Of a stretch of 64,000 nucleotides of DNA, positions 4,636 to 46,559 are shown piece after piece. Numbering within the stretch: position 1 is the stretch's first letter; each line of letters starts with the position of its first letter. Source of the DNA: Archangium gephyra (GTDB lineage Bacteria > Myxococcota > Myxococcia > Myxococcales > Myxococcaceae); contig NZ_CP011509.1 of the NCBI RefSeq assembly GCF_001027285.1, positions 10,440,501 through 10,504,500 on the forward strand, read 5' to 3'. The notes under the pieces are model-generated. The model was not told the DNA's origin. It worked only from the letters and a program-made list of their open reading frames with translations, and searched no databases. Both the position numbers and the translations under genes were made by a program.

Positions 4636-6702
<2,067 letters not shown>

Positions 6703-6720
6703 CCACCCAAGGGGGTTGTC

Positions 6721-7830: not shown

Positions 7831-7852
7831 CGGCGGTCACCTGGAGCTCGCG

Positions 7853-16260: not shown

Positions 16261-19200
16261 CTACGGCACTTCGGTGGGGCTCGCGGAGCTCTGCGGCTGA
16301 CGCACCGCGCGAGTCACGAAGTCAGCCGAGTTGTTGTTCGTGTCGGTGCCGTTGCCACGGGTGGCGTCGCTTCCCCCCACCGCCATGGTGGCGGAGGTGG
16401 AGGTGGTGTACGCCTTGCGCTCGAGGCTGCCGCCAACAGCCGGATGGAATGGAGCCGCCGAGCCCTCCGGCTGATTCCCCGTACCCCACCCCAGCTTGTC
16501 CACGGTCTTCGGGTCATTGAGATCAGTCCCCACGAGACCGGGACCGATGCGCACGTGACCACCGGCCGTGGTCGAGGCCGACGTGTCGAGGGTGTAGCGG
16601 GCATCGGGAGCGGCCGAAGCGCTGTAGTTGGCGCCCGCGAGCAGGAAGTACCCCCTGGCCTTGATGATGGTTCCCCCCGGCGCCGTGGTGGCGTTGATCG
16701 TCATCGAGCCGCTGTAGGTCGCACCGGTGGCCGACTTGTACTGCATCGTCCACCCGTTGAGGTCCACCGGGCTGTCCGTCGGGTTGTACAGCTCGACGAA
16801 CTCATCCGTGGCGGCGGTACCGGTCCCGTTGCCGCCGGAGAACTCGCTGATGACCACGTGATTGGTCAGAACGGGAGGACCCACCGTGGCCACCGTCACG
16901 GAGCCATAGGTGCCGGCCGGCGGCGTCACCACCCCACTCTGGTCGCAATACACGTAGGGGCCGTAGCTGGCCGTGGCCGTGTCCCAGAGCCGGTAGCGGA
17001 AGCCGTACTTGTACGTGCCCGCCGTGGGGATGCTCAACGAACCCAGCACCTCGTCGTTGTTGGTGAACCCGCTGGAGTAGGCCTTGTAGGGCAGCGCCGC
17101 CGTCCACGTCCAACCCGCCGGGTTGGTGGGATCCGCGCCGTAGCCCAGCTCGGCGGACACGTGCGGGTAGAAGTCGTTCCCCGTCGTGTTCCGGTCCGTC
17201 ATGCTCGCGCCGTAGAACTGGCTGTAGATGGTCCACGAGGAGCCCGGCGTCACGGTGGCCGGGTAGTCGGTGCCCGTCGGGAACGTCTTCGGGTACTGGA
17301 TGTTGCACCAATCCAGCGCCGGGACGTCCGGCATGCCGCAGGTGGAGTTGCGGGCGTTGGGCGTGCCCAGGTCACCGCCCTCCTTGAGCGGCGCCTCCGA
17401 GTCGCACCAGTACCAGGGCTGCGCGGAGGCCTTGGTCCCCACCACGACGGCCGAGAGGTTCATGGACCTGCCCAGCGTCTGCGGGAAGGACGGCGTGTAC
17501 AGGAAGTCCTCCACCGTGGTGCCCCCCTGGTTGAGCACGAGCTGGCCCGAGCCCTCCAGGTTCAGATCCGCGCCGTACTGGTAGTCGGCGGAGACCCCAC
17601 CGTTGGTGGCGCCGTCCTTGTTCTGCGCCAGCACGAAGGTGCCCTTGCGGTCGATGATCACCGGCTTGCCACCGGCGCTCACGGAGAAGGACGACGTGAG
17701 GCTCGCGCTGTTCCGGTAGAGGACCGAGAGCCCGTTGAGGTTGAGCAGGCCGCCGGTGTTGTTGGTCAGCTCGATGTACTCGGTGATGCTGGCCGACGAG
17801 GGCGAGTGCATCACCTCGGAGATGCTCAGCTGGTTGGCTCCCGGAGCGGCCGCCGTGTCACACGCCTCCTTGAAGCAGACGGCATTGGCACCCGGGCAGA
17901 GGGTGGTCGTCTGCGACTCCTTGCAGGTGGCGGTGTTGTCCACGTCGACGCACGTCTGCGTGTAGGTGGTCCGCGAGACACCATCCGGGGCGCAGATGGG
18001 GCTCGGCGGCGTGCAGGTGAAGCCCGCGCACGGGTCCGCGTTCGTCGCCGTGCTCAGGTTGGAGACGGCCGTGTTGCCCGCGTCGTCGTGCACCTTCAGC
18101 GCGAAGTAGTAGGTCGTGCTGGGGGTCAGCCCGGTGACGAGCACCGACTCCTCGCTGCCCGGAGACAGCGGACGGTCCAGCGTCACCGACGAGATGGCGC
18201 CAGCGGGCGCGGTCTCGACGGGGACGGTCGCGTAGAGCAGCTCCTGGCTGGAGGCATTGCCCTCCATGCCGTCATCACCCACGGCCGTCCACTTCAGCGC
18301 CACCTGGACGCTCGTCTTGCCCGTCTCGCTGAGCGCCACGGCCGCCGGAGCCACGTCATCCACGAGGGTGAACGGGTTGCTGCTGGCACCGTCCAGCGGC
18401 CCACCCACGGCCTCGAGCCGGAAGCCCGAGCCCTGCTGGTCCACGGTGAGGCCGGAGAAGGTCGCGAGGCCCTTCACGGGCTTCACGGTCAGCGGGCCGC
18501 CACCGAGCACGGCCGCGGGGTTGCCCCCGGCCAGGCCCAGCGTGATGTCCGGAGCGTCCACGTCGAGCACGTTGTCGAACGCGTCCGTGACGGCCACGGT
18601 CACCGCCGCCAGCGCCTTGCGCACCTTGCCATCCGTGGGCTGGTCGCGGAACACGAGCTTCGCGGCGGGGCCGGGATTGACCACGATGGAGGGAGCCGTC
18701 GCCGCCAGGAAGGCCCGGGCGAGGTCCTTCACGGACAGCGACTGCTCGCCCGCGGTCTTCAGCGTCACGGAGAAGACCTTGTGGCCGGCATCCGCGCTGG
18801 TGAGCTCGCCGCTCGCGGGAGGCACCAGCTTCGAGTCGCTCGAGGTGAAGCCGAGCGTGCCCGTGTAGCCGGTGGCCACGTTGTCGTAGGCATCCTTCAG
18901 GGTCACGTCGACGGTGAAGGCAACACCCGCCTCCACCGGGGCGGAGGGCGCCACCAGCACGAGCGTGGAAGCCGGGGCGTGGGAGACCGACACGTCATGC
19001 GAGGCGCTCAGGCCCGCCGTGTCCGTCACGGTGATCTTCGTGGAGACGGCCTTCTCCAGCTTGAAGTCGAACCGGCGGCTGCCCTCGTCCGCGAGGACGA
19101 ACATGTAGGACGCCGGACCGGTGGCCCGGTCGGCATCCACGGTGAAGGTCACCTCGCGGGTGTAGTCCTTCACCACGTTGTCATGGGCATCCAGGGCGGT

Positions 19201-22805: not shown

Positions 22806-23633
22806 TCATCTCCCCTGGAAACGCGGAGGCCGGCGCTCGGCGAACGCGGCGAAGGCCTCGGCGAAGTCATGCGACTGAAGGAAGGCGGAGTTCCACACCG
22901 CCACGTAACGCAGGCCGTCCGCCACGGACTTGCCCGCGCAATACTCCATCACCTGCTTGGCCCCCTGCACCACGAGCGGCGGGTTGTCGGCGATCTTCCG
23001 CGCGGTGGCGCGCGCCTCGGCCAGCAGCTCCTCGGGGGTGGCGAAGACCTGGTTCACCAGCCCCATCCGCAGGGCGCGCTCGGCGTCCACGTCCCCGCCG
23101 GTGTAGGCGAGCTCGCGCGTGTGGCCCTCGCCGATGATGCGCGGCAGCCGCTGCAGCGCGCCGAGGTCCGCGGTGATGCCCACGCGCACCTCGCGCAGGG
23201 AGAACTTCGCCTCGCGCGAGCAGTAGCGGAAGTCACACGCGGCGATGAGATCCATGCCGCCGCCGATGCACCAGCCGTACACCGCCGCCAGCACCGGCTT
23301 GCGGCAACGGGCGAGCCCCTCGGTGGCGGCCTGCATCTTCTCGATGAGCTGGAGCAGCTTCGTGCGCTCGAGCGCGAGGTTGCCCTCACCGAGGATGAGC
23401 GGACCGAGCGACTCCGTCATCGCCATCAGGTCCAGGCCGTAGGTGAAGTTCGCGCCGTCGCCGCGCAGGAGGATGACGCGGACCGAGTCATCCGCGTCGA
23501 GGGCCCGGAGCGCCTCGGGCATCTCGCGCCAGAAGTCCGGCCCGAGCGCGTTGCCCTTGCCCGGGCCGGTGAGCACCAGCTCGGCGATGCCGTCCGCCTG
23601 CTCGATGCGAAGAGACTGGTATGCCGCCGTCAT
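22806..23633 (-). CDS. Enoyl-CoA hydratase/isomerase, dienoyl-CoA isomerase (ECH1) type
   Basis: This 275-residue crotonase-fold protein has the oxyanion blocks NFTYGLDLMAM and GWCIGGGMDLIAACDFRYC. The Asp, Glu and Asp spaced 20 and 8 residues apart (GGGMDL, LREVRVG, ITADLG) match the three acidic residues of delta3,5-delta2,4-dienoyl-CoA isomerase, rather than the two Glu of hydratases. Such an enzyme moves double bonds during breakdown of odd-position unsaturated fatty acids. I chose the start MTAAYQ (23633). It overlaps the reductase gene by one of its two start choices and lies 66 bases after dnaE on the same strand. Confidence 0.85.
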   Translation of the reverse strand: MTAAYQSLRIEQADGIAELVLTGPGKGNALGPDFWREMPEALRALDADDSVRVILLRGDGANFTYGLDLMAMTESLGPLILGEGNLALERTKLLQLIEKMQAATEGLARCRKPVLAAVYGWCIGGGMDLIAACDFRYCSREAKFSLREVRVGITADLGALQRLPRIIGEGHTRELAYTGGDVDAERALRMGLVNQVFATPEELLAEARATARKIADNPPLVVQGAKQVMEYCAGKSVADGLRYVAVWNSAFLQSHDFAEAFAAFAERRPPRFQGR

Positions 23634-23699
23634 GCTGGGCCCTCCCTCGCGAGGAAGGGCCACTTGAGCAGAACGGGCGGGCAGCGTCCACGCCCGCGC

Positions 23700-26600
23700 T
23701 CAGCCGAACTCGACCACCTTCATGCCGAAGAGCCGCTCCACGGACTGGATGAGCTCGTCACTCACCTGCACCTTGAGCGACGTGTTGCCGATGAGCGCCT
23801 CGGCCTCGTTGGTGAAGAGCAGGCTCACGGCCACCGGCGTGGCGCCCTCGTACTGCTTGACGAGCTTCGCCAGCTTCTCCATCCGCTCGTCCGTGGCGAG
23901 GTCCACCGGCAGCCGGAACTCCAGCCGCTTGGTGCGCTTCTCGCGCACGGCCTTGAGGCTCTGGATGTCCTCGACGATGAGCTCGGCCACCGGCGTGTCC
24001 TCGTCGCGCTGATTGATTTGGACCGTGCCCGTCACGAGGATGGGGTCATCGCTCTTGAGCAGCGGCTCCCAGTGCTCGAAGCCGGGCTTGGGCCCCTGCT
24101 TCGACCACTTGCCGTCCTTGCCCATGACGTTGCGCGTGCCGTCCTTGCCCGGGAAGCACACCAGCTCGATGGAGCCGGACAGGTCCTCCAGCGTCACCCA
24201 CGCCATGCGCTTGCCCGTCTTGGTGGGCCGCTCGCGCAGCGCCGCGACGATGCCGGCGATGGTGATCTTCTCGTCCTTGCGCGCGCGCGCCACCGCGGTG
24301 ATGGGCCGGGCGTAGCGCTTGAGCTCCTTGTCGTACTGGTGCAGCGGGTGGCCCGACACGTAGAAGCCGATGGCCTCCTTCTCCAGCGACAGGCGCTCCT
24401 TCTCCGGCCACTCCTCCGCCTGGACGTACTCGTCCTTCATCGCGGCGCCACCCGAGGAGCCACCGCCCAGCATGCCGAAGAGCGAGCTCTGCCCCGCGGC
24501 CTTGTCCTTCTGGCTGCTGGAGCCGCGGCTCATCGCGCGCTCGATGCTCTCGAAGAGCTGCCGCCGCGGGCGGTTCTCGAAATCGAAGGCTCCGGCCTTC
24601 ACCAGCGCCTCGAGCACCTTGCGGTTCACCTTGCGCGAGTCCACGCGCTCGCAGAAGTCGAACAGGCTCTTGAAGGGGCCCTCCTTGCGCGCCTCGACGA
24701 TGGACTCGATGGCGCCCTCGCCCACGCCCTTGATGGCGCCCAGGCCGAACCTGATTTTCCCCTCCACCGCGCCGAAGGCCATGTCCGACTGGTTCACGTC
24801 CGGCGGCAGCACCTGCACGCCCGACTGCCGGGCCTCGCCGATGTGCAGCACCACCTTGTCGGTGTTGTCCTTCTCGCTGGTGAGAAGGGCCGCCATGAAC
24901 TCCACGCGGTAGTGGGCCTTGAGCCACGCCGTGTGGATGGTGACCAGGCCGTAGGCCGCCGAGTGGCTCTTGTTGAAGCCGTACTCGGCGAACTTCTCCA
25001 TGAGGTCGAAGATTTCCCCGGCGACCTTCAGGTCGACGTTGTTCTTCGCGCAGCCCTCGAGGAAGCCGGCCCGCTCGGCCTGCATGACCTCGGCCTTCTT
25101 CTTGCCCATCGCGCGGCGCAGCAGGTCCGCGCGGCCCAGGGTGTAGCCTCCCAGCACCTGGGAGATCTGCATCACCTGTTCCTGGTAGACGATGACGCCG
25201 TAGGTGTCCTTGAGGACGGGCTCCAGCTTCGGGTGCGGGTACACCACCGGCTCGCGGCCGTGCTTGCGGTTGATGAAGACGTCCACCATGCCCGAGTCGA
25301 GCGGACCCGGGCGGTAGAGCGCGCCGGCGGCGACCACGTCCTCGAAGCAGGACGGCTTGAGCTTCATCACCATTTCGGTGAAGCCGCTGGACTCCATCTG
25401 GAAGACGCCGGCCGTGTCGCCCTCGGCCATCAGCTTCCAGACCTCGGCGTCACCCTCCAGCGGGATGTCCTCGCGCAGGATGGGCTTGCCGTTGGGCGGG
25501 TTGCGGTTGATGAGGTTGAGCGCGTTCTGGATGACGGTGAGCGTCTTGAGGCCGAGGAAGTCGAACTTCACCAGGCCGGCGGCCTCCACCTCGTCCTTGG
25601 CGAACTGGGTGATGAGGGTGTCTTCCCCCGGAGGCTGGTAGGTGGGGACGAACTCCCACAGCGGCTTGTCGGCGATGACGACGCCGGCCGCGTGCATGCC
25701 GGGCTGGCGGTGCAGGCCCTCCAGCGCGAGCGCGATCTCCAGCACGTCCCTGGTGGTGACGTCCTTGCCCTCCACCTGCCCGATGGCGGTGGGCTTCTCC
25801 ATCATCTCCTTGAGGCGCGGCTCCTGCTCGATGGCGTCCTTGAGCGTGATGCCGAGCACCTCGGGCACCAGCTTGGCGATTCGGTCCCCCTCGCTGAAGG
25901 GCAGCGCGAACACGCGGCACACGTCGCGCAGCACGCTCTTGGCCTTGAGCGAGCCGAACGTGATGATCTGCCCCACGTTGTTCTCGCCGTACTTGCGGCC
26001 CACGTACTTGATGACCTCGTCGCGCCGGTCCTGGCAGAAGTCGATATCGAAGTCCGGCATCGACACGCGCTCGGGGTTGAGGAAGCGCTCGAAGAGCAGG
26101 TTGTACGGGAGCGGATCCAGGTCGGTGATGCGCAGGCAGTAGGCCACGAGGCTGCCGGCGCCCGAGCCACGGCCCGGACCCACCGGAATCCCGTGCTGCT
26201 TGGCCCAGTTGATGAAGTCCTGGACGATGAGGAAGTAGCCGCTGAACCCCATCTTCTGGATGACGCCGATCTCCAGCTCCAGACGGGCCTTGTAGGGCTC
26301 GCGCTCCACGGGCTTCTGGCCCGTGCGGTAGCGCGCGATGTCGATCTCCTTGAAGCGCTCCTCGAGGTTCTTGCGCGCCAGCTCCGCCATGAAGCTATCG
26401 GCGGTGTGGTCCCCGGGCACCTGGAAGGTGGGCAGCATGGGCTTGCCCAGCTTCAGCTCCAGGTTGATCTGCTCGACGATCCGCTGGGTGTTGTGGACGG
26501 CCTCGGGCGTGTCCTTGAAGTACTCCAGCATCTCCTGCGGACTGGTGACGTAGAGCTTGTCCGTGGAGTGCTTCATGCGCTTGCCGTCGGCGAGCGTCTT

Positions 26601-27272
26601 GCCGCTGGCGATGCACATGAGGAGCTCGTGGGCGCGCGCGTCCTCCTTCTTGATGTAGTGCGCGTCCGCGGTGGCGCACAGCCCGATGCCCAGGTCGCGG
26701 CCGAGCTGCTTCAGGTTCTCGTTGGCCTTCTCCTGCTCGGGCATCCCGTTGGACTGCACCTCGAGGAAGAAGTGCTCGGGCTCGAAGATCTCCTTGTACT
26801 CGAGCGCCGCCTTGCGGGCGTGGTCCATGTCCCCGCGGAAGGCCGCGCCGGTGACCTCGCCACCCAGGCACGCGGTGAGCGCGAAGAGACCCTTGCTGTG
26901 GTCCTTCAGCAGCTGCTTGTCGATGCGCGGGTGGTAGTAGAAGCCCTCGCGGTAGGCCATGGAGGAGAGGTACTTGAGGTTGTCGTACCCCTCCTTGTTC
27001 TTGGCCAGGAGGATGAGGTGGTGGCCCACCTTCTCGGTGCGGTCCTTGCGGCCCTTGGGCCCGGCCACGTACGTCTCCATCCCGATGATGGGCTTGATGC
27101 CGGCGTCCTTGGCCTTCTTGTAGAAGTCGATGGTGGCGAACATGTTGCCGTGATCCGTCACGGCCACGCTCGTCATCCCCTTCTCCTTCACCGTCTTGAT
27201 GAGGTCCTTCATCCGGATCGCCCCATCGAGGAGCGAGTACAGGGAGTGCAGGTGCAGATGGGTAAAGGACAT
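23700..27272 (-). CDS. dnaE: DNA polymerase III subunit alpha
   Basis: The replicative polymerase is 1190 residues. It begins with a PHP domain (THLHLHSLYSLLDG, TDHGNM, HHLILLAKN, TADAHY), then the C-family polymerase core with the catalytic PDFDIDF motif, QPGMHAAGVV and KFDFLGLKTL. A helix-hairpin-helix region and a C-terminal OB domain (ITIAGIVAALRE) follow. I chose MSFTHLHLHS at 27272; upstream sequence is not family-like. The PHP metal ligands look intact, unlike in E. coli DnaE, so a proofreading-type nuclease activity is possible. The two lipid genes downstream may be co-transcribed, with no obvious link to replication. Confidence 0.97.
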   Translation of the reverse strand: MSFTHLHLHSLYSLLDGAIRMKDLIKTVKEKGMTSVAVTDHGNMFATIDFYKKAKDAGIKPIIGMETYVAGPKGRKDRTEKVGHHLILLAKNKEGYDNLKYLSSMAYREGFYYHPRIDKQLLKDHSKGLFALTACLGGEVTGAAFRGDMDHARKAALEYKEIFEPEHFFLEVQSNGMPEQEKANENLKQLGRDLGIGLCATADAHYIKKEDARAHELLMCIASGKTLADGKRMKHSTDKLYVTSPQEMLEYFKDTPEAVHNTQRIVEQINLELKLGKPMLPTFQVPGDHTADSFMAELARKNLEERFKEIDIARYRTGQKPVEREPYKARLELEIGVIQKMGFSGYFLIVQDFINWAKQHGIPVGPGRGSGAGSLVAYCLRITDLDPLPYNLLFERFLNPERVSMPDFDIDFCQDRRDEVIKYVGRKYGENNVGQIITFGSLKAKSVLRDVCRVFALPFSEGDRIAKLVPEVLGITLKDAIEQEPRLKEMMEKPTAIGQVEGKDVTTRDVLEIALALEGLHRQPGMHAAGVVIADKPLWEFVPTYQPPGEDTLITQFAKDEVEAAGLVKFDFLGLKTLTVIQNALNLINRNPPNGKPILREDIPLEGDAEVWKLMAEGDTAGVFQMESSGFTEMVMKLKPSCFEDVVAAGALYRPGPLDSGMVDVFINRKHGREPVVYPHPKLEPVLKDTYGVIVYQEQVMQISQVLGGYTLGRADLLRRAMGKKKAEVMQAERAGFLEGCAKNNVDLKVAGEIFDLMEKFAEYGFNKSHSAAYGLVTIHTAWLKAHYRVEFMAALLTSEKDNTDKVVLHIGEARQSGVQVLPPDVNQSDMAFGAVEGKIRFGLGAIKGVGEGAIESIVEARKEGPFKSLFDFCERVDSRKVNRKVLEALVKAGAFDFENRPRRQLFESIERAMSRGSSSQKDKAAGQSSLFGMLGGGSSGGAAMKDEYVQAEEWPEKERLSLEKEAIGFYVSGHPLHQYDKELKRYARPITAVARARKDEKITIAGIVAALRERPTKTGKRMAWVTLEDLSGSIELVCFPGKDGTRNVMGKDGKWSKQGPKPGFEHWEPLLKSDDPILVTGTVQINQRDEDTPVAELIVEDIQSLKAVREKRTKRLEFRLPVDLATDERMEKLAKLVKQYEGATPVAVSLLFTNEAEALIGNTSLKVQVSDELIQSVERLFGMKVVEFG

Positions 27273-27668
27273 GGCAGGAAAGTAGTCAGGAAGAGGGCCT
27301 ACAGCATCACATTTGTACAGTGGGACGGCGCTCGCCAGTTTCCGGCCGGGCGTCGCGTCCGGAGCCGGAAAATCGGCCCCGGAGCGTTGTGGCATGCCTC
27401 ACACGGGCCGTGAAGGAGCCGTCAGGTCGGGCATGGCTCGGGTGGCCTGGCACCTGGGGTACCCCTCGGAAGCCCCCTGGCCGGGCGGCCGGGCAGGCGT
27501 GACGGGGTGGGTTCCACACGGCTCCGGAGCCTCCCGCGCGGCCTTCACACTTCTTTACCCCAGCGAAAAGCGCCCGCAACGGGCCTCTCGCATTCTGTAC
27601 ACCGTCGCCGATTGACGGCGCCCCCGAACAGAAAGCGGGGCCCCCGAGGCCCCTGGGAGTTACACGCC
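27273..27668. other. Divergent intergenic region, dnaE / Spy-like gene
   Basis: These 396 bases contain no convincing gene: the open frames are short and Arg/Gly/Pro-rich. The promoters for both genes must lie here, but I cannot point to boxes. A GC-rich hairpin (GGGGCCCCCGAGGCCCC) sits about 15-30 bases before the Spy-like start and overlaps its leader. Confidence 0.35.
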
Positions 27669-35854: not shown

Positions 35855-35882
35855 CGGTCATACTCGGACGGGCGGGCTGATG

Positions 35883-35922
35883 GGTCCGCGGTACAGGTGA
35901 CTGGTCCGCGGTACAGGTGACG
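35883..35922. repeat. Two tandem 20-bp repeats upstream of the multicopper oxidase
   Basis: GGTCCGCGGTACAGGTGACT is followed directly by the same unit with a last-base change. Each unit contains a CCGCGG palindrome. The pair starts 195 bases before the oxidase gene, with a GATTG/CAATC inverted repeat about 10 bases further on. A two-site operator spaced by nearly two helical turns is a reasonable reading, but no regulator is known. Confidence 0.6.
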
Positions 35923-36077
35923 GGTGCGATTGGTGTCAATCCAACGCTCTCCAGCACTCGCGGGCCATGTTTTACTCCGCCTCTAAAGAGTTACACACCC
36001 TCTACACCATTCATTGCCATTGCTCCCGCTTTTCCGGGGTGACGGCAAGCATTGGAAATGAACTCGCGTGGGGGGCC

Positions 36078-39000
36078 ATGCAACGAACCGTGGTAGCGGC
36101 GGTGGTGGGCGTGTGCATCGTGGCGTTGGGCGTGGGCGTCGTGACCCGGGAACAAGAACCCCAGGCCCCCGCAGCCGCGGCGGCCCAGCAACCCGTGGCG
36201 AGCGTGGTCGCCTGCGCGCGGACGATCTCCGCCAGCGTGGTGGTGATGGATCAGCCGCTGATGTTCAACCGGCTGGGCGCCCAGAACGTCAACGGAATGA
36301 TGTACGCGCTGAGCCGGGACGTCATCAACCTGGACTCGGGCCTGCCGCTGACGCGGGGAGGGGCGCCAGTGCCGGGCCGGGTGGCCTTGCGTCCGGACAA
36401 ACGGCCGCGGCCGCTCGTGCTGCGCGCCGCCGAGGGCGACTGCCTGCGCGTGAGCCTCACCAACCTGCTCACGCCCGCCGCCAATCCGCGAAGCCCCCCC
36501 ACCCTCATCAACCGCCTGCGCTTCAACCTGCCGCTCAACGAGCAGGTCGCCGACCGGACCGTGGGCTTCACCGTGCCGGGCCTGCAGCTCGTGGGCACCA
36601 TCGCCGATGACAGCTCCTTCGCCGGGCGCAACGCCAGCAGCCTGGTCTCCCCGGGCCGCGGCGCCGTCTACAACCTGCTGGCCGTGGAGGAAGGCACCTT
36701 CCTCGCCACGAGCGACGGCGCCCCGTTCGGCGGCGAGGGCGGCTATGGCAACGGCACCAATGGCCTGTTCGCCGCCGTCAACGTGGAGCCCCGCGGCGCG
36801 AGCTTCTACCGCAGCCAGGTGACCGAGGAGGAGCTGCGGCTGAGCACCACCGGGACGAGCCCCACGGGCCACCCGCTCATCAACTACGAGGCGGTGTACC
36901 CCGCCGTGGAGCCGTGGCTCGGCGAGGGCAAGAGCGGCCTGCCCATCCTCAACATGCTGACGTCGTCCGGGGAGCTCGTCCACACGGACATCAACGCCAT
37001 CATCATGGGCCCCCTGGGGGATGGCTCCTTCCCGCCGAGCACCTACCCCCTGGAGAGCGTGGGCCGGCGCAACCCCAGCGTGCCCAACCGCCTGGAGGCC
37101 TTCCGCGAGTTCACCTCCCTCTTCCATGACGAGGTCGCCGCGGCCAACGCCTTCCCCGGCTACTTCGAGGATCCGGTGCTCGGCTACACCCTGGAGGGCG
37201 TCCGGGATGCCTTCATGATCAACTACGGCTCGGCGGGCATCGGCTCGGAGATCATCGCCAACCGCCTGTCCGTGGGGCCGATGCACGACTGCCTCGACTG
37301 CGCCTACGAGGACTTCTTCCTGAGCTCGTTCGCGGTGGGTGACGCCGCGATGGTGGTGGACGTGCCGGCCAACATCGGGCTGGAGACGCTGAGGCCCGGG
37401 GTGGCGCCGCCGCCGGGCGCCTCGGGGCCCAAGGCCACCCGGGCCTTCTTCCCGGAGGACCCCAGCAACGTCTCCCACAGCTACCTCAGCGACTTCGTGA
37501 AGTTCCGCAACCTCCACGTGGGCAAGGAGCACCACGTCTTCCACCTGCACAACCACCAATGGCTGTTCAATCCCAACGACGACAACTCGAACTACATCGA
37601 CGCCCAGGGCATCGGGTCGGGTTCGGGCTACACGTATGAAATCAGCTTCGGTGGCTCCGGCAATCGCAACCTCAGCGCGGGCGACGCCATCTTCCACTGT
37701 CACTTCTATCCCCACTTCGCCCAGGGCATGTGGGCCATGTGGCGCATCCACGACACGTTCGAGGCGGGAACGAAGCTGGCGGTGAGCGGTACGGGCTTCC
37801 ATACCGCCCCCTTCTCGCTCCAGGACGGGAGGCCGGCCGTTGGAGCCCGGGCCCTGCCGGACGGAGAGCTCGTCGCCGGGACGCCCATTCCCGCGGTGGT
37901 GCCACTGCCCGGCAAGGCCATGGCGCCCATGCCCGGCCGGGTCGAGGTGGTGCCCAGCCCGAACATCACCACGGCCTCCACCTTCCATCCGCTCAACCCG
38001 GGGGCCCGCGTGCCGGTGGGCAGCAATGCCCGCGTCATCGATCGCACCACCAACCCCGGCTACCCGTTCTGGATCGCCGGCATCGAGAACATCGTGGGCC
38101 AGCGGCCGACCACGCCGCCCCTGGACATGCTGTCGGAGGCGGAAGCGGCGGCGCTCCAGTCCGGCACCAATCCGCTGTTCGCCGGCCGGGCGGAGCTCGT
38201 CGCCGGTGCCGGCGGCTTCACGGGCGGATTGCCGAGGCACGCGTTGGAGGGCGTGGCGGCGGGAGGTGAGGCCGAGTCCACCCTGAGCCGGCTGGACTTC
38301 AGCAAGGAGATGCTCAAGGCGCGGCCGGTGTACTTCCCCGAGGAGGGCACGGACGTGGAGCAGACGGCCATGCTCTTCCACTCCCGGCCCATCCACCCGA
38401 GCACGACGCTGCGCCGCGATGGCAGCTCGGTGCCGGGCAACTTCCGCACCAACGGGCTGCCCCCCGTGCCCAGCGCTCCGTTCTTCGAGCCCTGCCGGGA
38501 TGACGCGGGCAATCCCATCCTCGCCGGCGTGGCGCCGCGCTTCTTCGACGGCGCGGGCGGCCTGGGCACCACGGGCGCCGTGCAGTTCGGCGCGAGGAAT
38601 CCCCGCGTCTACAAGGGCGCCAACATCCAGCTCGACGTGGTCTTCAACAAGGTGGGCTACCACTACCCGCAGGAGCGCATCCTCACCCTGTGGGAGGACG
38701 TGACGCCCACGCTCAACAAGACGCGGCCGCCCGAGCCCTTCGTCATCCGGTTCAACACCTTCGACTGCGGCAAGTACCTCCACACCAACCTCATCCCCAA
38801 ATACTTCGAGTTGGATGACTTCCAGGTGCGCTCGCCCACGGACGTCATCGGGCAGCACATCCACCTGCCCAAGTGGGACCTGCCCTCGGCCGATGGCGCG
38901 GCCAACGGCTGGAACTACGAGGACGGCACCCTGGCACCCGGCGCGGTGCGCGAGCGCATCGAGGCCATCAACACGTACAACACCACCCCGGGCGTCACCC

Positions 39001-41732
39001 CCGTGCCGGCGCCGGATGGCCGCATCACGCTCACGCCGCTGCCCCACCCCTTCTTCGGCGCCGGCCCGGGCGGCGAGTGGCTGGGGGCCCGCACCACCCT
39101 CCAACGCTGGTTCTTCGATCCGGTGGTCAACGCGCAGGGCGTCCACCGGGGACTCGGCGTCATCTTCACGCATGATCACCTGGGGCCCTCCACCCACCAG
39201 CAGGTGGGCCTCTACGGCTCGGTGATCACCGAGCCTCCGGGCTCCACCTGGAGACACAACGAGACCGGCGTGCCACTCGGGACGCGGAGCGATGGAGGCC
39301 CCACGAGCTGGCAGGCCGCCATCCTCACCGGGGACCTGGACGGAGACGGGCTCAACGACAGCTACCGCGAGTTCTGGTTCCAGGCCTCGGACTTCCAGCA
39401 CGCCTATGAGGCCGGCGTGTACGTGGGAGCCGGTCCGGACGGGAGGCCCGGGCCGGGGACCGCGCCCACCGCGGCGACGTTCCGCAACGCGATCGGCCCG
39501 CCCCACCGGCTGCAGGCCAGCCCGGTGTTCCCGGACCTGTTCGTCAACGCGGCCACCTGTCCCGGAGGTGTGCCGCGGCCGTGCCCGCAGGCCATCTCCG
39601 TGGATGACCCGGGCATGCTCGTCGTCAACTACCGCAACGAGCCCGTGGGCCTGCGCGTCTACGACCCGGGCAAGGTGGGACCGGATGGCAAACCGGGATC
39701 GCAGGCCACAGGCCTGGCCGGAGACCTGGCCTTCGCGCTGCAGACACGCAGGGACCGCGCCATCTCCGCGCTCAACACCGCGCTCGGCAACACCCCCTAC
39801 CCCGCGCTGACAGCGGACATCGACGGTGGAGATCCGTTCACCCCGCTCATCCGCACCTATATGGGAGACCGGGTGCGGGTGAAGTTCCAGGTCGGCGGAC
39901 ACGAGGAGGAGTTCAACGCCACCATCCACGGGGTGAAGTGGCTGCAGGCGGGCTCCAGCTACGGCTCCTCGCCCAACTCCGGCTGGCGCAACGCCCAGGC
40001 GCAGGGCATCTCCGAGCAGTTCACCTTCACGGTGCCGCTCCTGCCCGCACTCGGCCAGGCCGGCGCCCGGGTGGACTACGCGTACGGCCTCAACAGCAGC
40101 CAGGACGGCTGGTGGAGCGGCGCATGGGGCCTGATGCGCTCGTACAACACCCCGCGCACGGACCTGTTCCCGCTGCCCACCACCCGGGCCCCGCTGCGGA
40201 TCGCCAACCCCGCGGACTTCAGCGCCGACGCGGGTGGCGCCTGCCCGCGCGCCGCACCGGTGCGCGCCTATGACATCACCGCCGTGCTGGCCAACACCGC
40301 GCTCACCAGCCCGGCGGGTGTGTCCCTCGTCCCCTCGGATGCCTCGGCCACCCTGCACGTCGGAGCCCCGTTGGATCCGCGCGGCGGCACGCTCGTGTAC
40401 AACCCGCGGCGCACGGCACTGTCCAACGGCGAGTCGGGACCGCTCCATGACCCCACCGCCATCCTCTACGTGCGCACCGCGGACCTGGATCCCACCACCG
40501 GCAAGCTCCTGCCCGGTGTCCCCATCGAGCCGCTCGTCCTGCGCGCGGCGGCGGGCGAGTGCATCGAGGTCACCCTGCGCAACCGGCTGCCCGCGGACGT
40601 CAACGGCAACACCTTCTTCGACGACAACCCGGACCTGGCCAACCTCACCAGCCTCATCGGCGTGGTCAACCGCGACCGGAGCAACCCGCAGGGCGTGACC
40701 ACCTTCAACAACAACCTCATCCGCCCCTCGAGCTGGGTGGGGCTGCATCCCCAGCTCGTGGCCTATGACCCCACCAAGGCGGATGGAACCAACGTCGGCA
40801 ACAACCCGCAGCAGCTCGTGTCTCCCGGTGGCCAGGCACGCTACCGCTGGTACGCGGGCGACATCAGCGGGACACCGGGCAACACCCGGGCCGTCACGCT
40901 CGTGGCCACGCCGTTGGAGTTCGGCGGCACCAACCTCATCCCCGCCGACAAGGTCAAACAGGGGCAGAAGTCGCTGGTGGGCGCGCTCATCATCGAGCCC
41001 GCGGGCTCGGCGTGGACCGAGGACGCGAGCCGGAGGGCCGCGGCGAGCGTGGGCCCCGATGCCAACCGCGATGGCCGGCCGGACAGCACCGCGTTCCGGG
41101 ACTTCGCCGTGGTGTGGCAGAAGCAGCTGAGCCACCGCTACGCGGATGGCACGGCCGTGGAGAACGTCGCCGCCGAGCAGCTCATCTCCGAGGACTCGCA
41201 GGACTCCGGGCAGATGGCCATCAACTACGGCTCCGAGCCGCTGTGGTTCCGCTTCGGCCTGCGCCCCAACGCGCCGCTCGGCAACACGGCCGGGGGCTAC
41301 GGTGCGGTGCCGGATGCCTTCACGGCCTACAGCAACAGCCGCGGAGGGGGAGATCCGGTGACGCCCGTGTTCACCGCGGCGCCCGGCCAGCAGGCCCGCA
41401 TGCGGCTGGTGGAGCCGCACGGGTCCTACCGCGGCTCCAGCTTCCGGCTGCACGGCCATGGCTGGCAGAGGGACCCGTACATCTGTCCGGGCTCGGCCAA
41501 CCTCGGCCTGCCGGGCAAGTGCAGCGCGACGGAGCTCGGCTCCCGGGCGCTCGGCGTCAACCCCGTGGGCATGTACCTGGGTGCCCAGGAGAGCGTGCAC
41601 CCCTACACGCACTTCGAGATCTTCCTGCCCAGCGCCGGAGGCGCCAACGCGGTGCCGGGGGACTACCTGTTCCGGGACTACGAGAGCCTCGGAAACATCT
41701 GCGGCCAGTGGGGCCTGCTGCGCGTGCAGTGA
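36078..41732 (+). CDS. Giant multicopper oxidase, MnxG/ceruloplasmin-like
   Basis: The exported 1884-residue oxidase starts at ATG 36078 (preceded by GTGGGGGGCC) with an N-terminal hydrophobic signal or anchor. Copper motifs: HHVFHLHNH (485-493), then HCHFYPHFAQGM (540-551, with Cys541 and axial Met551), then HIH (927-929) and HDH (1032-1034). In ordinary multicopper oxidases the two HxH motifs come first, so the order is permuted. Two further cupredoxin ends, SGAWGLMR (Trp1350) and GDYLFRDYESLGNICGQWGLLR (Trp1878), resemble the HCH motif region but have lost the ligands. The size suggests about six cupredoxin domains, as in MnxG-type manganese oxidases or ceruloplasmin. The real substrate, Mn(II), Fe(II) or Cu(I), is unknown. 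It heads an operon with SCO copper chaperones. Confidence 0.88.
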   Translation: MQRTVVAAVVGVCIVALGVGVVTREQEPQAPAAAAAQQPVASVVACARTISASVVVMDQPLMFNRLGAQNVNGMMYALSRDVINLDSGLPLTRGGAPVPGRVALRPDKRPRPLVLRAAEGDCLRVSLTNLLTPAANPRSPPTLINRLRFNLPLNEQVADRTVGFTVPGLQLVGTIADDSSFAGRNASSLVSPGRGAVYNLLAVEEGTFLATSDGAPFGGEGGYGNGTNGLFAAVNVEPRGASFYRSQVTEEELRLSTTGTSPTGHPLINYEAVYPAVEPWLGEGKSGLPILNMLTSSGELVHTDINAIIMGPLGDGSFPPSTYPLESVGRRNPSVPNRLEAFREFTSLFHDEVAAANAFPGYFEDPVLGYTLEGVRDAFMINYGSAGIGSEIIANRLSVGPMHDCLDCAYEDFFLSSFAVGDAAMVVDVPANIGLETLRPGVAPPPGASGPKATRAFFPEDPSNVSHSYLSDFVKFRNLHVGKEHHVFHLHNHQWLFNPNDDNSNYIDAQGIGSGSGYTYEISFGGSGNRNLSAGDAIFHCHFYPHFAQGMWAMWRIHDTFEAGTKLAVSGTGFHTAPFSLQDGRPAVGARALPDGELVAGTPIPAVVPLPGKAMAPMPGRVEVVPSPNITTASTFHPLNPGARVPVGSNARVIDRTTNPGYPFWIAGIENIVGQRPTTPPLDMLSEAEAAALQSGTNPLFAGRAELVAGAGGFTGGLPRHALEGVAAGGEAESTLSRLDFSKEMLKARPVYFPEEGTDVEQTAMLFHSRPIHPSTTLRRDGSSVPGNFRTNGLPPVPSAPFFEPCRDDAGNPILAGVAPRFFDGAGGLGTTGAVQFGARNPRVYKGANIQLDVVFNKVGYHYPQERILTLWEDVTPTLNKTRPPEPFVIRFNTFDCGKYLHTNLIPKYFELDDFQVRSPTDVIGQHIHLPKWDLPSADGAANGWNYEDGTLAPGAVRERIEAINTYNTTPGVTPVPAPDGRITLTPLPHPFFGAGPGGEWLGARTTLQRWFFDPVVNAQGVHRGLGVIFTHDHLGPSTHQQVGLYGSVITEPPGSTWRHNETGVPLGTRSDGGPTSWQAAILTGDLDGDGLNDSYREFWFQASDFQHAYEAGVYVGAGPDGRPGPGTAPTAATFRNAIGPPHRLQASPVFPDLFVNAATCPGGVPRPCPQAISVDDPGMLVVNYRNEPVGLRVYDPGKVGPDGKPGSQATGLAGDLAFALQTRRDRAISALNTALGNTPYPALTADIDGGDPFTPLIRTYMGDRVRVKFQVGGHEEEFNATIHGVKWLQAGSSYGSSPNSGWRNAQAQGISEQFTFTVPLLPALGQAGARVDYAYGLNSSQDGWWSGAWGLMRSYNTPRTDLFPLPTTRAPLRIANPADFSADAGGACPRAAPVRAYDITAVLANTALTSPAGVSLVPSDASATLHVGAPLDPRGGTLVYNPRRTALSNGESGPLHDPTAILYVRTADLDPTTGKLLPGVPIEPLVLRAAAGECIEVTLRNRLPADVNGNTFFDDNPDLANLTSLIGVVNRDRSNPQGVTTFNNNLIRPSSWVGLHPQLVAYDPTKADGTNVGNNPQQLVSPGGQARYRWYAGDISGTPGNTRAVTLVATPLEFGGTNLIPADKVKQGQKSLVGALIIEPAGSAWTEDASRRAAASVGPDANRDGRPDSTAFRDFAVVWQKQLSHRYADGTAVENVAAEQLISEDSQDSGQMAINYGSEPLWFRFGLRPNAPLGNTAGGYGAVPDAFTAYSNSRGGGDPVTPVFTAAPGQQARMRLVEPHGSYRGSSFRLHGHGWQRDPYICPGSANLGLPGKCSATELGSRALGVNPVGMYLGAQESVHPYTHFEIFLPSAGGANAVPGDYLFRDYESLGNICGQWGLLRVQ

Positions 41733-41752: not shown

Positions 41753-43756
41753 ATGAGCCCACACGACACCTCGTCCCACCCGAAACGCCCGTGGCGTACC
41801 GCCGCCGTGGGAGCGTTGCTCACCGTCCTGCCCCTGGCCGGGTACGCCGTCCTCTCCGCGAAGGAGCGCGAGAGACCGGCCCCCACGGCCAAGGCTCCCG
41901 AGCAGGTGAGCGCCACCGGACGGCTCGAGAAGAGCGGCGTCGTGGTGGAGTTCTCCGTCGTCCAGCCCGGGCTCACCGGGACGGAGCAGCGGCCGCTGAT
42001 GGAAGGGGACCATGCCGAGGTCCGCTTCCGCATGACCGATGCCACCAGCGGCCTGCCGCTGCGGGGCCTCTCGCCCGCGGCGTGGATGGACCTGGGCCAG
42101 GTGCTCTCGGGGAAGGTGGAGCAGAAACACGAGTGCAAGGAACGCGTCGCGCTCTACCTCAAGGGGCTGGTCGGCATCCGCCCGCTCATCGACCTCAACA
42201 GCTACTACCTGCTGGTGATGAACCAGGATGCGAGCCTCTCGGTCATCGACCCGCTGGTGGGGATGACGGGCAAGACGAGCCTCTATGCCACGGTGGTGCT
42301 CGACCGGCCCGGCGCCGACTGGGTGAAGAGCCGCGACGGGCGGAAGCTCTTCGTGTCGATGCCCCGGGCGGGGAAGGTGGCGGTGGTGGACACGGAGGTG
42401 TTCCGGGTGGAGGCCCGGGTGGAGGCCGGCGAGGAGCCCACGCGCGTCGCCGTCCAGCCGGATGGGCGCTACCTCTGGGTGGGAGATGGCCCCGGGGCGA
42501 AGGCCGGCAGCGGCGTCACGGTCATCGACACCGAGTCCCTGGAGACCGTGGCCCGGATTCCCACCGGACGCGGACACCACGAGCTCGCCTTCACCCCGGA
42601 TGACCGCTTCGCCTTCGTCAGCAACCGCGAGGAGGGCACGGTGTCCGTCATCGACATCGCGAAGCTCGCGAAGGTGAAGGACCTGCGGACGGGCCCGCTC
42701 CCCATCTCCGTGGCCTTCTCTCCCCTCTCCGGCGCGCTCTACGTGGCGGACGGCAAGGAGGGAACCATCGTGGCCATCGACGGCGAGCGGCTGGAGGAGC
42801 GCGCCCGCCTGACGGCGAAACCGGGCCTGGGGCCCATGCGCTTCACCCAGGACGGACGCTGGGGCCTGGTGGTCAATCCCTCCGAGCACACGGTGTCCGT
42901 CATCGACGCCGCCAGCCACCGGCTCGAGCACACGCTCAGCGTGGCAGGCCAGCCCTACCAGGTGGGCTTCACCCGGGCGTTCGCCTACGTGCGCCTGCTC
43001 GACTCCGAGCGCGTGGAGATGATCAACCTCGCGACCCTGGGCGGTGGCGCGAAGCCGACGATACAGGGCTTCGGCGCGGGAGCCTCGGCGCCCAGGCTCG
43101 CGGGAGACCTCAGCCTCGCCGACTCCATCTCACAGGCCGCCACCGAGGCGGCGGTCTTCGTGGTCAACCCGGCGGAGAACACCACGTACTTCTATATGGA
43201 GGGCATGAACGCCCCCATGGGGAGCTTCGGCAACTACGGACACAACGCCCGGGCGGTGAGCGTGGTGGACAGGAGCCTGAAGGAAGTCGAGCCCGGGGTG
43301 TACTCCGCGCGCGTCCGCGTTCCGGTGGCGGGCAGGTACGACGTCGCCTTCCTGTTGGACTCGCCGCGCGTGCTGCACTGCTTCACGGTCGAGGCGAAGG
43401 AGAACCCCGCCCAGCAGCAGGCGCGCCATGCGCTCGAGCTCGAGTACCTGGACTTCCCGGCGCGGCTGACGGCGGGCGAGGAGCCACGGCTGCGCTTCAA
43501 GCTGCGCGAGCCGGCCACCCACCAGCCCGTCGCCGGGTTGGGTGACGTGACGATGCTCACCTATGCCGCGCCCGGACAGCAGCGCGCCGAGGTGACCGCG
43601 CGAGAGGTGGAAGACGGCGTCTACGAGGCACGGCCCACGCTGGCGAGCGCTGGCGCGTACTACCTCTACGTCTCGGTGCCCTCGCGGAAGGTGGGCTACG
43701 GCGGGCTGCCCTACCGGACGCTCTGGGTGGCGGGCGCGGCGAAGAGCGAACCCTGA
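41753..43756 (+). CDS. Exported YVTN beta-propeller protein
   Basis: The 667-residue protein has an N-terminal signal-anchor (TAAVGALLTVLPLAGYAVLS). An Ig-like domain (about 60-125) is followed by a YVTN/cytochrome-D1-type propeller (about 150-430) with repeats such as GVTVIDTESLETVARIPTGRG and FVSNREEGTVSVIDIAKL. A C-terminal beta-sandwich pair follows (about 470-667). A Met/Asn-rich loop (YMEGMNAPMGSFGNYGHN) could bind copper. It starts 20 bases after the oxidase stop codon; in-frame sequence upstream lies inside the oxidase gene and is not coding. Likely a periplasmic partner or scaffold of the oxidase (inference). Confidence 0.85.
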   Translation: MSPHDTSSHPKRPWRTAAVGALLTVLPLAGYAVLSAKERERPAPTAKAPEQVSATGRLEKSGVVVEFSVVQPGLTGTEQRPLMEGDHAEVRFRMTDATSGLPLRGLSPAAWMDLGQVLSGKVEQKHECKERVALYLKGLVGIRPLIDLNSYYLLVMNQDASLSVIDPLVGMTGKTSLYATVVLDRPGADWVKSRDGRKLFVSMPRAGKVAVVDTEVFRVEARVEAGEEPTRVAVQPDGRYLWVGDGPGAKAGSGVTVIDTESLETVARIPTGRGHHELAFTPDDRFAFVSNREEGTVSVIDIAKLAKVKDLRTGPLPISVAFSPLSGALYVADGKEGTIVAIDGERLEERARLTAKPGLGPMRFTQDGRWGLVVNPSEHTVSVIDAASHRLEHTLSVAGQPYQVGFTRAFAYVRLLDSERVEMINLATLGGGAKPTIQGFGAGASAPRLAGDLSLADSISQAATEAAVFVVNPAENTTYFYMEGMNAPMGSFGNYGHNARAVSVVDRSLKEVEPGVYSARVRVPVAGRYDVAFLLDSPRVLHCFTVEAKENPAQQQARHALELEYLDFPARLTAGEEPRLRFKLREPATHQPVAGLGDVTMLTYAAPGQQRAEVTAREVEDGVYEARPTLASAGAYYLYVSVPSRKVGYGGLPYRTLWVAGAAKSEP

Positions 43757-43768
43757 GGAAGGAACCCC

Positions 43769-44422
43769 ATGTCATTCGAGAGCAAGAGAGCGAAGGCCGC
43801 GAGTCTCCTCCTGGCCCTGCTGCTGGTGGTACCAGCCCGCGCGATGGGGGACGAAGCGTGCCCCCATCACAAGCAAGGCACCGCCACCGCGGCGCCCGCC
43901 CCCAAGGCCCCGTCCTCCGAGGTCCGCCTCGTCGAGGCCGGGCTCGTCGACCAGGACGGCACACCCGTCCGGCTCGGCGGTGAGGTGATTGGCGACAGGC
44001 TCGTCGTCATGAACTTCGTCTTCACCACCTGCACCACGGTGTGCCCCGTCCTCTCGGCGATCTTCTCCCGGGTCCAGGGCAGGCTGGGCGACCGGCTGGG
44101 CAAGGAGGTCCAGCTGGTCTCCCTCAGCGTGGACCCCACCCGCGACACGCCCGCGCGCTTGAAGGACTACGCGACCCGCCTCCGGGCGAAGGCCGGATGG
44201 ACCTGGCTCACCGGCGGCCCGGAGAACGTCAAACAGGTGCTCCAGGGCCTCGGGGCCTACACCCCGTCGTACGCCAACCACACGCCCATGGTGCTCATCG
44301 GTGACGCGCGCACCGGCACGTGGGTGAGGCTCAATGGCTTTCCCAGCGAGGAGCAGATCCTCGCGAAGGTGGATGAACTGGCCGCGGCCCGCCGGGCTCG
44401 CGCGGAGAACCCCGCCCCATGA
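43769..44422 (+). CDS. SCO1/SenC-family copper chaperone, first copy
   Basis: This is a 217-residue exported thioredoxin-fold protein with a signal peptide (SLLLALLLVVPARA). The copper motif FTTCTTVCPVLS (CxxxC) and the distal His in YANHTPMVLIGD are intact. SCO proteins deliver copper to CuA or other periplasmic copper sites and also reduce cysteines. A His pair in the mature N-terminus (CPHHK) adds a possible copper ligand set. It follows the propeller gene by 12 bases and overlaps the second SCO gene by four, so it should serve the oxidase complex. Confidence 0.94.
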   Translation: MSFESKRAKAASLLLALLLVVPARAMGDEACPHHKQGTATAAPAPKAPSSEVRLVEAGLVDQDGTPVRLGGEVIGDRLVVMNFVFTTCTTVCPVLSAIFSRVQGRLGDRLGKEVQLVSLSVDPTRDTPARLKDYATRLRAKAGWTWLTGGPENVKQVLQGLGAYTPSYANHTPMVLIGDARTGTWVRLNGFPSEEQILAKVDELAAARRARAENPAP

Positions 44423-44988
44423 CACTCCCCTGCAAGCCGTTGCTCGTCCTGGCCCTGGCCTTCTGCCTTCACGCTCGCGCGGCGGATCCCACGCCCGAGG
44501 AGAAGGCCCGCGCCTGGTTCACCGACACCTCGCTCGTCACGCAGGAAGGGAAACAGGTCCGGTTCTACAGCGACGTCCTGAAGGATCGCGTGGTCGTCAT
44601 CTCCTTCCTCTTCACGCGCTGCACCACCGCCTGTCCGATGATCGCCGCCCGGCTCAATCGCATCCGCGAGCAGCTCGGCGAGCGCTTCGGGCGCGAGGTG
44701 ACCTTCATCTCCATCAGCGTGGACCCCGAGCACGACACCCCGCAGCGGCTCGCGGAGTTCGCCCGCAAGCACCAGGCGGCCCACCCGGGCTGGACGTTCC
44801 TCACCGGGAAGAAGGAGGACGTGAACCAGGTCATCGCCCGGCTCGGCCAGTACGTGGAGAACATCGAGGGACACTCCACGCTGCTCATCGCTGGCAACGA
44901 GAAGCGCAAGCACTGGACGAAGATCCGCCCGGATGAGCCCTCCCCGGCCGTCGCCGAGCGCGTGCGGCAGCTCGCCGAGGAACGATGA
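44419..44988 (+). CDS. SCO1/SenC-family copper chaperone, second copy
   Basis: This 189-residue exported protein has a signal peptide (PLLVLALAFCLHARA). The SCO copper motif FTRCTTACPMIA and distal His in IEGHSTLLIAGN are present. It shares fold and motifs with the upstream SCO protein but differs widely in sequence, so this is not a recent tandem duplication. The start ATG overlaps the previous stop codon (ATGA at 44419-44422), and its own stop overlaps the next gene in the same way. Two chaperones suggest two copper sites or two redox steps to load. Confidence 0.94.
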   Translation: MTLPCKPLLVLALAFCLHARAADPTPEEKARAWFTDTSLVTQEGKQVRFYSDVLKDRVVVISFLFTRCTTACPMIAARLNRIREQLGERFGREVTFISISVDPEHDTPQRLAEFARKHQAAHPGWTFLTGKKEDVNQVIARLGQYVENIEGHSTLLIAGNEKRKHWTKIRPDEPSPAVAERVRQLAEER

Positions 44989-46559
44989 CCATGCGGGCCC
45001 TCCCCCTGCTGCTCTGCGCGCTGTCCTGTGCCGCGGCCGCGAGTCCCACTCCGCTCACGCCCCGGGAGCAGGCGGGCAGGAGAATCTACTTCGAGGGGGA
45101 GAGCCCCACGGGCGGGAGCATCTCCGCGACGCTCGGCGCGAACGTCCGGCTGCCGGGCTCGGCGGTGCCGTGCGTCAACTGCCACGGCGAGGACGGCTCG
45201 GGCCGTCCCGAGGGGGGAGTCCTTCCCCCGGACATCACCTGGACGGAGCTCACCAAGCCGTACGGCCACGTCCATCCAGGTGGAAGGAAGCACCCGGTGC
45301 TCGAGGACAGGAGCGTGGCGCGCGCCGTCTCCGAGGGCATCGATCCGGGCGGGAACCGGCTGGACGCGGTGATGCCGCGCTACTCGATGTCCTGGGAGGA
45401 CATGAGCAGCCTGCTCGCGTGGCTGAAGCGGCTGGAGCACGAGCGCGAGCCCGGGGTGACGGACTCGGCGCTGCGGCTGGGCGTCGTGCTTCCCACGCGG
45501 GGGCGGCTCGCGGAGCTGGGACAGGCCATGCGCGGCGTGCTGGAGGCCTGGTGCGCCGAGCTCAACGCCTCGGGAGGCATTCACGGCCGCACGCTCGAGC
45601 TGGTCATCGCCGGGTACGACAGCGACCAGGAGACGGGCCTGGCCAGCGCCCAGCGGATGCTCGGCCAGGAGCCCGTCTTCGCGCTGCTGTCCGGCTTCCT
45701 GCCGGGAGCGGAGAAGGAGCTGGCCGCGCTGGCGGAGCGGGAGGCGCTGCCGCTCATCGGGCCCTTCACCCTGTCCGCCCGGAAGGACGGTACGCCGGAG
45801 CGTCACGTCTTCTTCCTCCTGTCGGACGCGGGAGAGCAGGCCCGCGTCCTCGCCGAGTACGCCGCGAGGGAGCTGTCCCGGGAAGGCACACGGGCCGCCA
45901 TCCTCCATCCCGAGGACGAGGGCCTCGCCGGAGCCGCACGCGCGGCACGGGCCCGGCTCCAGGCGCGCGGCTGGAAGCAGGTGGAGCTGCTGCGCTACAC
46001 CCGGGGCGCCTTCAATCCCGCGCTGGCCGAGGACCTGAAGCGCAAGGGCACGCGGGTGATGCTGTTCCTCGGCAACGACGAGGAGCTCGCCGCGCTGCTG
46101 GAGAAGGCGCGGACACTGGGCTGGGCGCCCTACCTGCTGTTGCCGGGAAACCTCTCCGCGCGAGCGGCGGTGCGAGCGCCCGCGCTCTTCCAGGGCCGCA
46201 TCTTCCTCGCCTACCCCACCCTGCCGTCGGACGAGCAGCCCCGTGCCCGGGAGGCGTTCTCCCGTCTACAAGCGAGCACCCCGGCCGCGGAAGGCTACCG
46301 GATGGCCCAGGTCTCCGCGTACACCGCCGCGACGCTGCTCACCGAGGGCCTGCGCCGCTCTGGCAGACAGTTGAGCAGGAAGAAGCTGCTCGGCCACCTG
46401 GAGGGACTGTATGCCTTCGAACCGGGGCTCGTGCCGCCCTTGAGCTACGGGCCCAACCGGCGCGTGGGCGCGTGGGGGGCCTACGTCGTCACGGTGGACC
46501 TCGCGGCCCGGAGCTTCCGTCCGGTCACCGGGTGGATGGAGCTGCCCGACGGGGGGTAA
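44985..46559 (+). CDS. Cytochrome c fused to type-1 periplasmic binding protein
   Basis: The 524-residue protein is exported (signal peptide, residues 1-20). A class I cytochrome c domain carries the haem motif CVNCH (63-67) with Met130 or Met135 as axial ligand (DAVMPRYSMS). From about residue 163 it becomes a branched-chain-amino-acid-type periplasmic binding protein (LRLGVVLPTRGRLAELGQAMR, ASGGIHGRTLELVIAGYDSD). No permease or ATPase is nearby, so the binding domain probably senses or scaffolds rather than imports. It ends the oxidase operon, overlapping the second SCO gene (ATGA). It may accept electrons from, or pass them to, the multicopper oxidase (inference). Confidence 0.9.
   Translation: MTMRALPLLLCALSCAAAASPTPLTPREQAGRRIYFEGESPTGGSISATLGANVRLPGSAVPCVNCHGEDGSGRPEGGVLPPDITWTELTKPYGHVHPGGRKHPVLEDRSVARAVSEGIDPGGNRLDAVMPRYSMSWEDMSSLLAWLKRLEHEREPGVTDSALRLGVVLPTRGRLAELGQAMRGVLEAWCAELNASGGIHGRTLELVIAGYDSDQETGLASAQRMLGQEPVFALLSGFLPGAEKELAALAEREALPLIGPFTLSARKDGTPERHVFFLLSDAGEQARVLAEYAARELSREGTRAAILHPEDEGLAGAARAARARLQARGWKQVELLRYTRGAFNPALAEDLKRKGTRVMLFLGNDEELAALLEKARTLGWAPYLLLPGNLSARAAVRAPALFQGRIFLAYPTLPSDEQPRAREAFSRLQASTPAAEGYRMAQVSAYTAATLLTEGLRRSGRQLSRKKLLGHLEGLYAFEPGLVPPLSYGPNRRVGAWGAYVVTVDLAARSFRPVTGWMELPDGG

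Follow-up and report, generated by a model that had tools for sequence, protein, structure and literature searches.

Where does a multicopper oxidase build its copper site when its copper motifs come in an unusual order, and what would such a protein oxidise? Both questions are raised by an intact open reading frame at 36078..41732 (plus strand) of a 64,000-nucleotide stretch of the Archangium gephyra genome (hereafter the window). Its product, of 1884 residues, starts with a hydrophobic signal-type segment. A motif scan of the translated frame, together with alignment, placed HxxHxH at residues 486 to 491 (37533..37550), HCHxxxHxxxxM at 540 to 551 (37695..37730) and HxH at 927 to 929 (38856..38864) and again at 1032 to 1034 (39171..39179), all on the plus strand and all at the positions given in a first-pass annotation of this DNA. 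The first two motifs lie in domain 2 and the HxH pair in domain 3 of the architecture described below. With roles assigned from established multicopper oxidase chemistry, H486, C541, H546 and M551 are T1 copper ligands, and H489, H491, H540 and H542 together with H927, H929, H1032 and H1034 are trinuclear ligands. The annotation had described the order as the reverse of the usual; it is indeed unusual, but it is a swap of blocks (III-IV-I-II in place of I-II-III-IV) and not a strict reversal.

Two later cupredoxin ends retain the G-x-WG-x-x-R frame, at W1350 and W1878, as had been claimed, and in both the HCH is replaced. At the end of domain 6 (41451..41729, plus strand), RDY stands at residues 1866 to 1868, where the annotation had read it and where the profile alignment agrees. 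The 'GLN' proposed for the middle domain at 1337 to 1339, conversely, is off by one or misaligned: profile alignment leads to V1332-D-Y, and a count from the tryptophan leads to 1338 to 1340. Under either placement the end of domain 4 (residues 1332 to 1357; 40071..40148, plus strand) carries no HCH. The motif scan also revealed an additional, residual HGH at 1792 to 1794 in domain 6, which was missing from the earlier list.

The family to which the protein belongs was apparent from the NCBIfam model NF041487 (manganese-oxidizing multicopper oxidase MnxG, an equivalog), which matched residues 46 to 1883 over profile positions 1 to 1893 of 1894. The score of 2551 bits falls below the curated cut-off of 3100 bits; among relatives, the Pseudomonas jinjuensis protein scores 3827 and that of Rubrivivax A210 scores 2152. 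Pfam searches with the 1884-residue protein returned no copper-oxidase match, and Pfam alone would therefore miss the oxidase. Among solved structures the closest chain is 9bxa_A, the MnxG of Bacillus sp. PL-12, at E 6e-68 (8e-92 using the 55-row profile of residues 40 to 1130). In these alignments the HVFHLH, HCH, HIH and HDH of the window oxidase fall onto the corresponding Bacillus residues, and a CxxC at residues 405 to 408 (37290..37301, plus strand), which might form a disulfide or a metal site, is likewise shared. By our reading of the alignment, position 340, which is mutated in 9bxa, would be the T1 histidine equivalent to H546.

Profile comparison with hhalign resolved residues 40 to 700, 840 to 1375 and 1389 to 1884 as three copies of a single two-cupredoxin unit (probabilities 97.7, 99.8 and 99.7, the match at 97.7 spanning only domains 2 and 4). 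The HxxHxH/HCH of domain 2 aligns with IHGVKW/VDY in domain 4 and with LHGHGW/RDY in domain 6, and the HIH/HDH of domain 3 aligns with HPQ/TPL in domain 5; in this protein neither domain 1 nor domain 5 possesses an HxH pair. A cluster could form at the interfaces 2/3, 4/5 and 6/1, and the ligands are complete at 2/3 only. The sequence and profile alignments thus give a T1 site in domain 2 alone and trinuclear ligands drawn from domains 2 and 3, a single complete set in accordance with the one active cluster that had been proposed. This explains the motif order: where a cluster bridges the last and first domains, the HxH pair is met first along the chain, and where it bridges domains 2 and 3, the pair is met last; here the active trinuclear site is between domains 2 and 3 rather than 6 and 1.

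Structure prediction with AlphaFold2 (alignments for the structure work: A3, 55/72 rows; A4, 51/61 rows) gave mean pLDDT values of 83.2 for residues 40 to 1130 and 86.2 for residues 840 to 1884, with a pTM of 0.89 for both. The top PDB match in Foldseek for each model was 9bxa_A (E 5e-37 and 4e-47, respectively). In VIA-align 2, residues 48 to 1114 of the predicted model superposed on residues 1 to 668 of 9bxa (Z 22.8, rmsd 3.0 Å, 621 residues), a single superposition that contains both motif pairs. The C-terminal model (residues 840 to 1884) fitted residues 350 to 1038 of human ceruloplasmin, 1kcw (Z 22.1, rmsd 3.8 Å, 551 residues); 9bxa was missing from the best 50 rows of the VIA table for this model, although it ranked first by Foldseek. 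The three two-cupredoxin repeats are thereby predicted to form a six-domain, ceruloplasmin-like ring, whose closure is visible via the structure matches only, the chain having been modelled as two overlapping parts. The full-length NF041487 match, the Bacillus ligands in register and the fit of ceruloplasmin to the C-terminal model bear out the annotation's description of a ceruloplasmin/MnxG-like multi-cupredoxin protein.

The window oxidase and Bacillus MnxG are both multi-cupredoxin chains with HxxHxH/HCH followed by HxH/HxH. The Bacillus chain, however, is about 1217 to 1227 residues long against 1884, and the segment preceding domain 3 (residues 574 to 845) is approximately three times longer in the window oxidase. 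Taken by itself, this segment matched nothing convincingly in Pfam or the PDB, but weakly aligning stretches within it follow the shorter segment of Bacillus MnxG in the same order. A foreign extra domain was therefore rejected, and the segment looks like an expanded inter-domain region.

To establish whether the motifs are a family trait, relatives were collected by two routes. An HMM search covering 193 genomes from the phylum found matches in 39, none above the cut-off. A scan across genome contigs yielded 217 confirmed relatives, with 79 loci returned, including Pseudomonas jinjuensis, Rubrivivax sp. A210, Hyphomonas, Nitrosomonas, Nitrospira and Anaeromyxobacter. Of 108 matching frames, 10 were left out as shorter than 1600 residues and 4 as duplicates; with the window protein added, the alignment has 95 rows. 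None of the 12 ligand residues varies (95/95 rows), and the same holds for C405, C408 and C897, although loci of the contig scan were picked by two sequence patterns, MHDCLDC and HLHNHQW, which partly builds in the conservation of C405, C408, H489 and H491. A set of 19 rows, comprising MnxG HMM matches or the genome's own paralogs and free of this bias, provides a cleaner control, and here the same 12 ligands are invariant in 19/19. The HxH motifs, whose conservation in homologs the annotation had named as a test of its proposal, are thus kept throughout both sets. An origin of the motif order in gene damage or fusion was also considered and ruled out, the order being the same in all 95 aligned members.

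The substituted sites are family-wide too. W1350 is kept in 95/95 rows and W1878 in 90/95 (the others being 4 gaps and 1 Phe), and the residues listed for the 95 rows at the HCH/T1-Cys places of domains 4 and 6 include no Cys. As no member has an HCH at these places, the motif seems to have been lost in an ancestor of the family rather than by recent decay. The annotation's two T1-like sites lacking HCH are therefore real, but 'decayed' does not describe a property of this gene in particular.

Neither the copper-site layout nor the motif order is new: both are published traits of the whole family. For the bacterial six-domain oxidases analysed there, the available part of PMC3600357 (2013) describes a trinuclear site in domains 2 and 3, a mononuclear site in domain 2 only and residual ligands elsewhere, and the central point of the copper-site finding was therefore already known. 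A table in the same paper lists proteins of 1944 residues in P. putida GB-1, 1760 in Stigmatella aurantiaca and 1580 in Sorangium cellulosum. The length of 1884 residues, which the annotation had singled out, is great but normal for the family.

Two-domain (small) laccases, e.g. 3cg8, resemble the window oxidase in their repeated unit, and their domain-2 ligand motif can be aligned with it. These enzymes, however, are homotrimers with three clusters, whereas the window oxidase has one chain and one cluster. Human ceruloplasmin shares the arrangement of six cupredoxin domains in a ring, but it has its cluster at the interface of domains 6 and 1, with T1 sites in domains 2, 4 and 6 (available part of PMC3600357). 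A ceruloplasmin-type 6/1 cluster is absent from the window oxidase, in which domain 6 has no HCH and domain 1 no HxH.

The oxidase gene heads a cluster of five genes on the plus strand. It is followed by genes for a 667-residue YVTN beta-propeller protein (Cytochrom_D1-like) with a C-terminal YtkA domain (41753..43756), two SCO1/SenC copper chaperones (43769..44422 and 44419..44988) and a 524-residue fusion of a cytochrome c (CVNCH) to an ABC-type substrate-binding protein (44985..46559). The gaps are 20 and 12 bases, followed by two 4-base overlaps, the first of them between the chaperone genes. A 19-base direct repeat, GGTCCGCGGTACAGGTGAC, occurs in two copies head to tail at 35880-35925, some 150 bases before the oxidase gene begins, and is a possible regulatory site.

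Table 4 of PMC11409713, in the part available, gives the mnxG operon of P. putida GB-1 as mnxG, YVTN propeller, SCO1, SCO1, a substrate-binding protein with a cytochrome c domain, and SurA. The first five of these six genes are present in order in the window, and no SurA domain was found adjoining the five-gene cluster. The window oxidase is thus like Pseudomonas MnxG in its full-length match, motif order and operon order, being approximately 55 percent identical to its P. jinjuensis counterpart, and unlike it in scoring below the equivalog cut-off and in that no SurA domain was found beside its operon. Bacillus MnxG differs in having MnxE/MnxF partners, neither of which is among the Pfam-named neighbours of the window oxidase. 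Among the 78 loci with at least 4.2 kb of downstream sequence (shorter ones and 4 duplicates excluded), the exact propeller-SCO-SCO-cytochrome/SBP order follows the oxidase in 67, a variant in 8 and none of these genes in 3 (L051, L128 and L139); the cytochrome c/SBP fusion itself accompanies MnxG-type oxidases in 74/78. The set is widely kept, the loci compared coming from Pseudomonadota, Myxococcota, Nitrospirota, Acidobacteriota and others, and a large myxobacterial genome (12.5 Mb) can now be credited with five of the six genes of a Mn-oxidase operon of the P. putida type.

The same genome contains two more oxidase copies with partners, at 3.98 and 8.15 Mb, making three sets in all; these further oxidase-propeller-SCO-SCO-cytochrome/SBP sets are found at L040:5251-10440 and L041:5860-10935 (minus strand) together with the genes downstream of these coordinates, and their oxidases are approximately 45 percent identical to that of the window. 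In a FastTree phylogeny (every third well-filled column; 87 of the 95 rows, near-identical rows having been dropped), whose deep forks are weak, the window protein grouped with two proteins of the same bacterial family (74 percent identity) inside an MnxG-type clade that also contains Pseudomonas and Rubrivivax A210. The two paralogs fell in a separate myxobacterial clade. Rubrivivax A210 has two members within the MnxG-type clade; according to the available part of PMC8218464 this strain is Mn-oxidising, the responsible oxidase not being settled there. Three MnxG-type genes stand in tandem in both Pseudomonas jinjuensis (L077:2760-20869) and P. schmalbachii (L079:2564-21004).

These results identify the window oxidase as a member of the MnxG six-domain family, and it most probably uses O2 to oxidise Mn(II), acting outside the cytoplasm. 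Mn(II) is suggested as the substrate by the family and the operon: MnxG is the main Mn oxidase of GB-1, where, as stated in the available part of PMC11930936, deletion of mnxG slows Mn removal roughly tenfold. In the mechanism we propose, copper would be loaded by the SCO proteins, and Mn(II) would donate electrons singly to the T1 copper (H486, C541, H546, M551). The electrons would pass via C541 to the trinuclear site, which would reduce O2 to water, and Mn(III) would proceed to Mn(IV) oxide. The intact ligands, read in the light of established multicopper oxidase chemistry, argue for this path from T1 copper through the trinuclear site to O2; domains 4 to 6 would be structural, closing the ring.

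The main competitor to Mn(II) oxidation, appreciably less probable, is that the same fold and cluster serve another substrate, the protein being a ferroxidase, cuprous oxidase or phenol oxidase with weak or absent Mn oxidation. A score of 2551 against a cut-off of 3100 bits means that the same substrate is not guaranteed, the fold is ceruloplasmin-like, and the two SCO chaperones and YtkA domain point to copper handling. Furthermore, most members of the 95-row alignment have, to our knowledge, never been assayed, and we know of no activity for the window oxidase itself; a literature search on myxobacteria, Mn oxidation and multicopper oxidases found nothing on topic. Against another substrate, the window oxidase groups with Pseudomonas and the known Mn oxidiser Rubrivivax A210, apart from the clade of its own paralogs, and has five of the six mnxG operon genes in order.

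The remaining possibilities concern the copper sites themselves. Loss of two of the three T1 places and two of the three trinuclear places, and the presence of factors VIII and V among the structure matches, might suggest a degenerate, non-enzymatic copper-binding or structural protein comparable to coagulation factors V and VIII; this is highly improbable given one complete set of 12 ligands, intact and invariant in 95/95 rows. Three separately active clusters, one per domain pair, we consider the least probable reading of all: the HGH of domain 6 survives, and H1792 is kept in 75/95 rows and H1794 in 80/95, but the T1 places of domains 4 and 6 have no listed Cys and in the window protein HxH pairs are absent from domains 1 and 5.

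Beyond Mn(II) oxidation by the oxidase alone, we speculate, with little confidence, that the five-gene set acts as one conserved machine, in which the cytochrome c/SBP fusion would relay or accept the electrons of Mn(II) oxidation or sense a Mn(III) ligand; the three copies, which come from two old clades, might each be suited to a different metal or stage of growth. In P. putida MnB1, genes for cytochrome c maturation are involved in Mn oxidation (available part of PMC11409713). A fusion lying in the electron path or sensing a Mn(III) ligand would explain the impaired Mn oxidation of pseudomonad cytochrome c maturation mutants, and the conserved fusion is thus a candidate reason for this effect. 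The wide conservation of the set makes the role of this partner a direct target.

Elsewhere in the window, two very long open reading frames on the plus strand (16444-21798, 1784 residues; 22869-27413, 1514 residues) had no Pfam match at E 1e-4. Genes for a PrkA kinase, a DUF444 protein and SpoVR lie consecutively at 4402-9346, where the G+C content is 0.62-0.65 against approximately 0.70.
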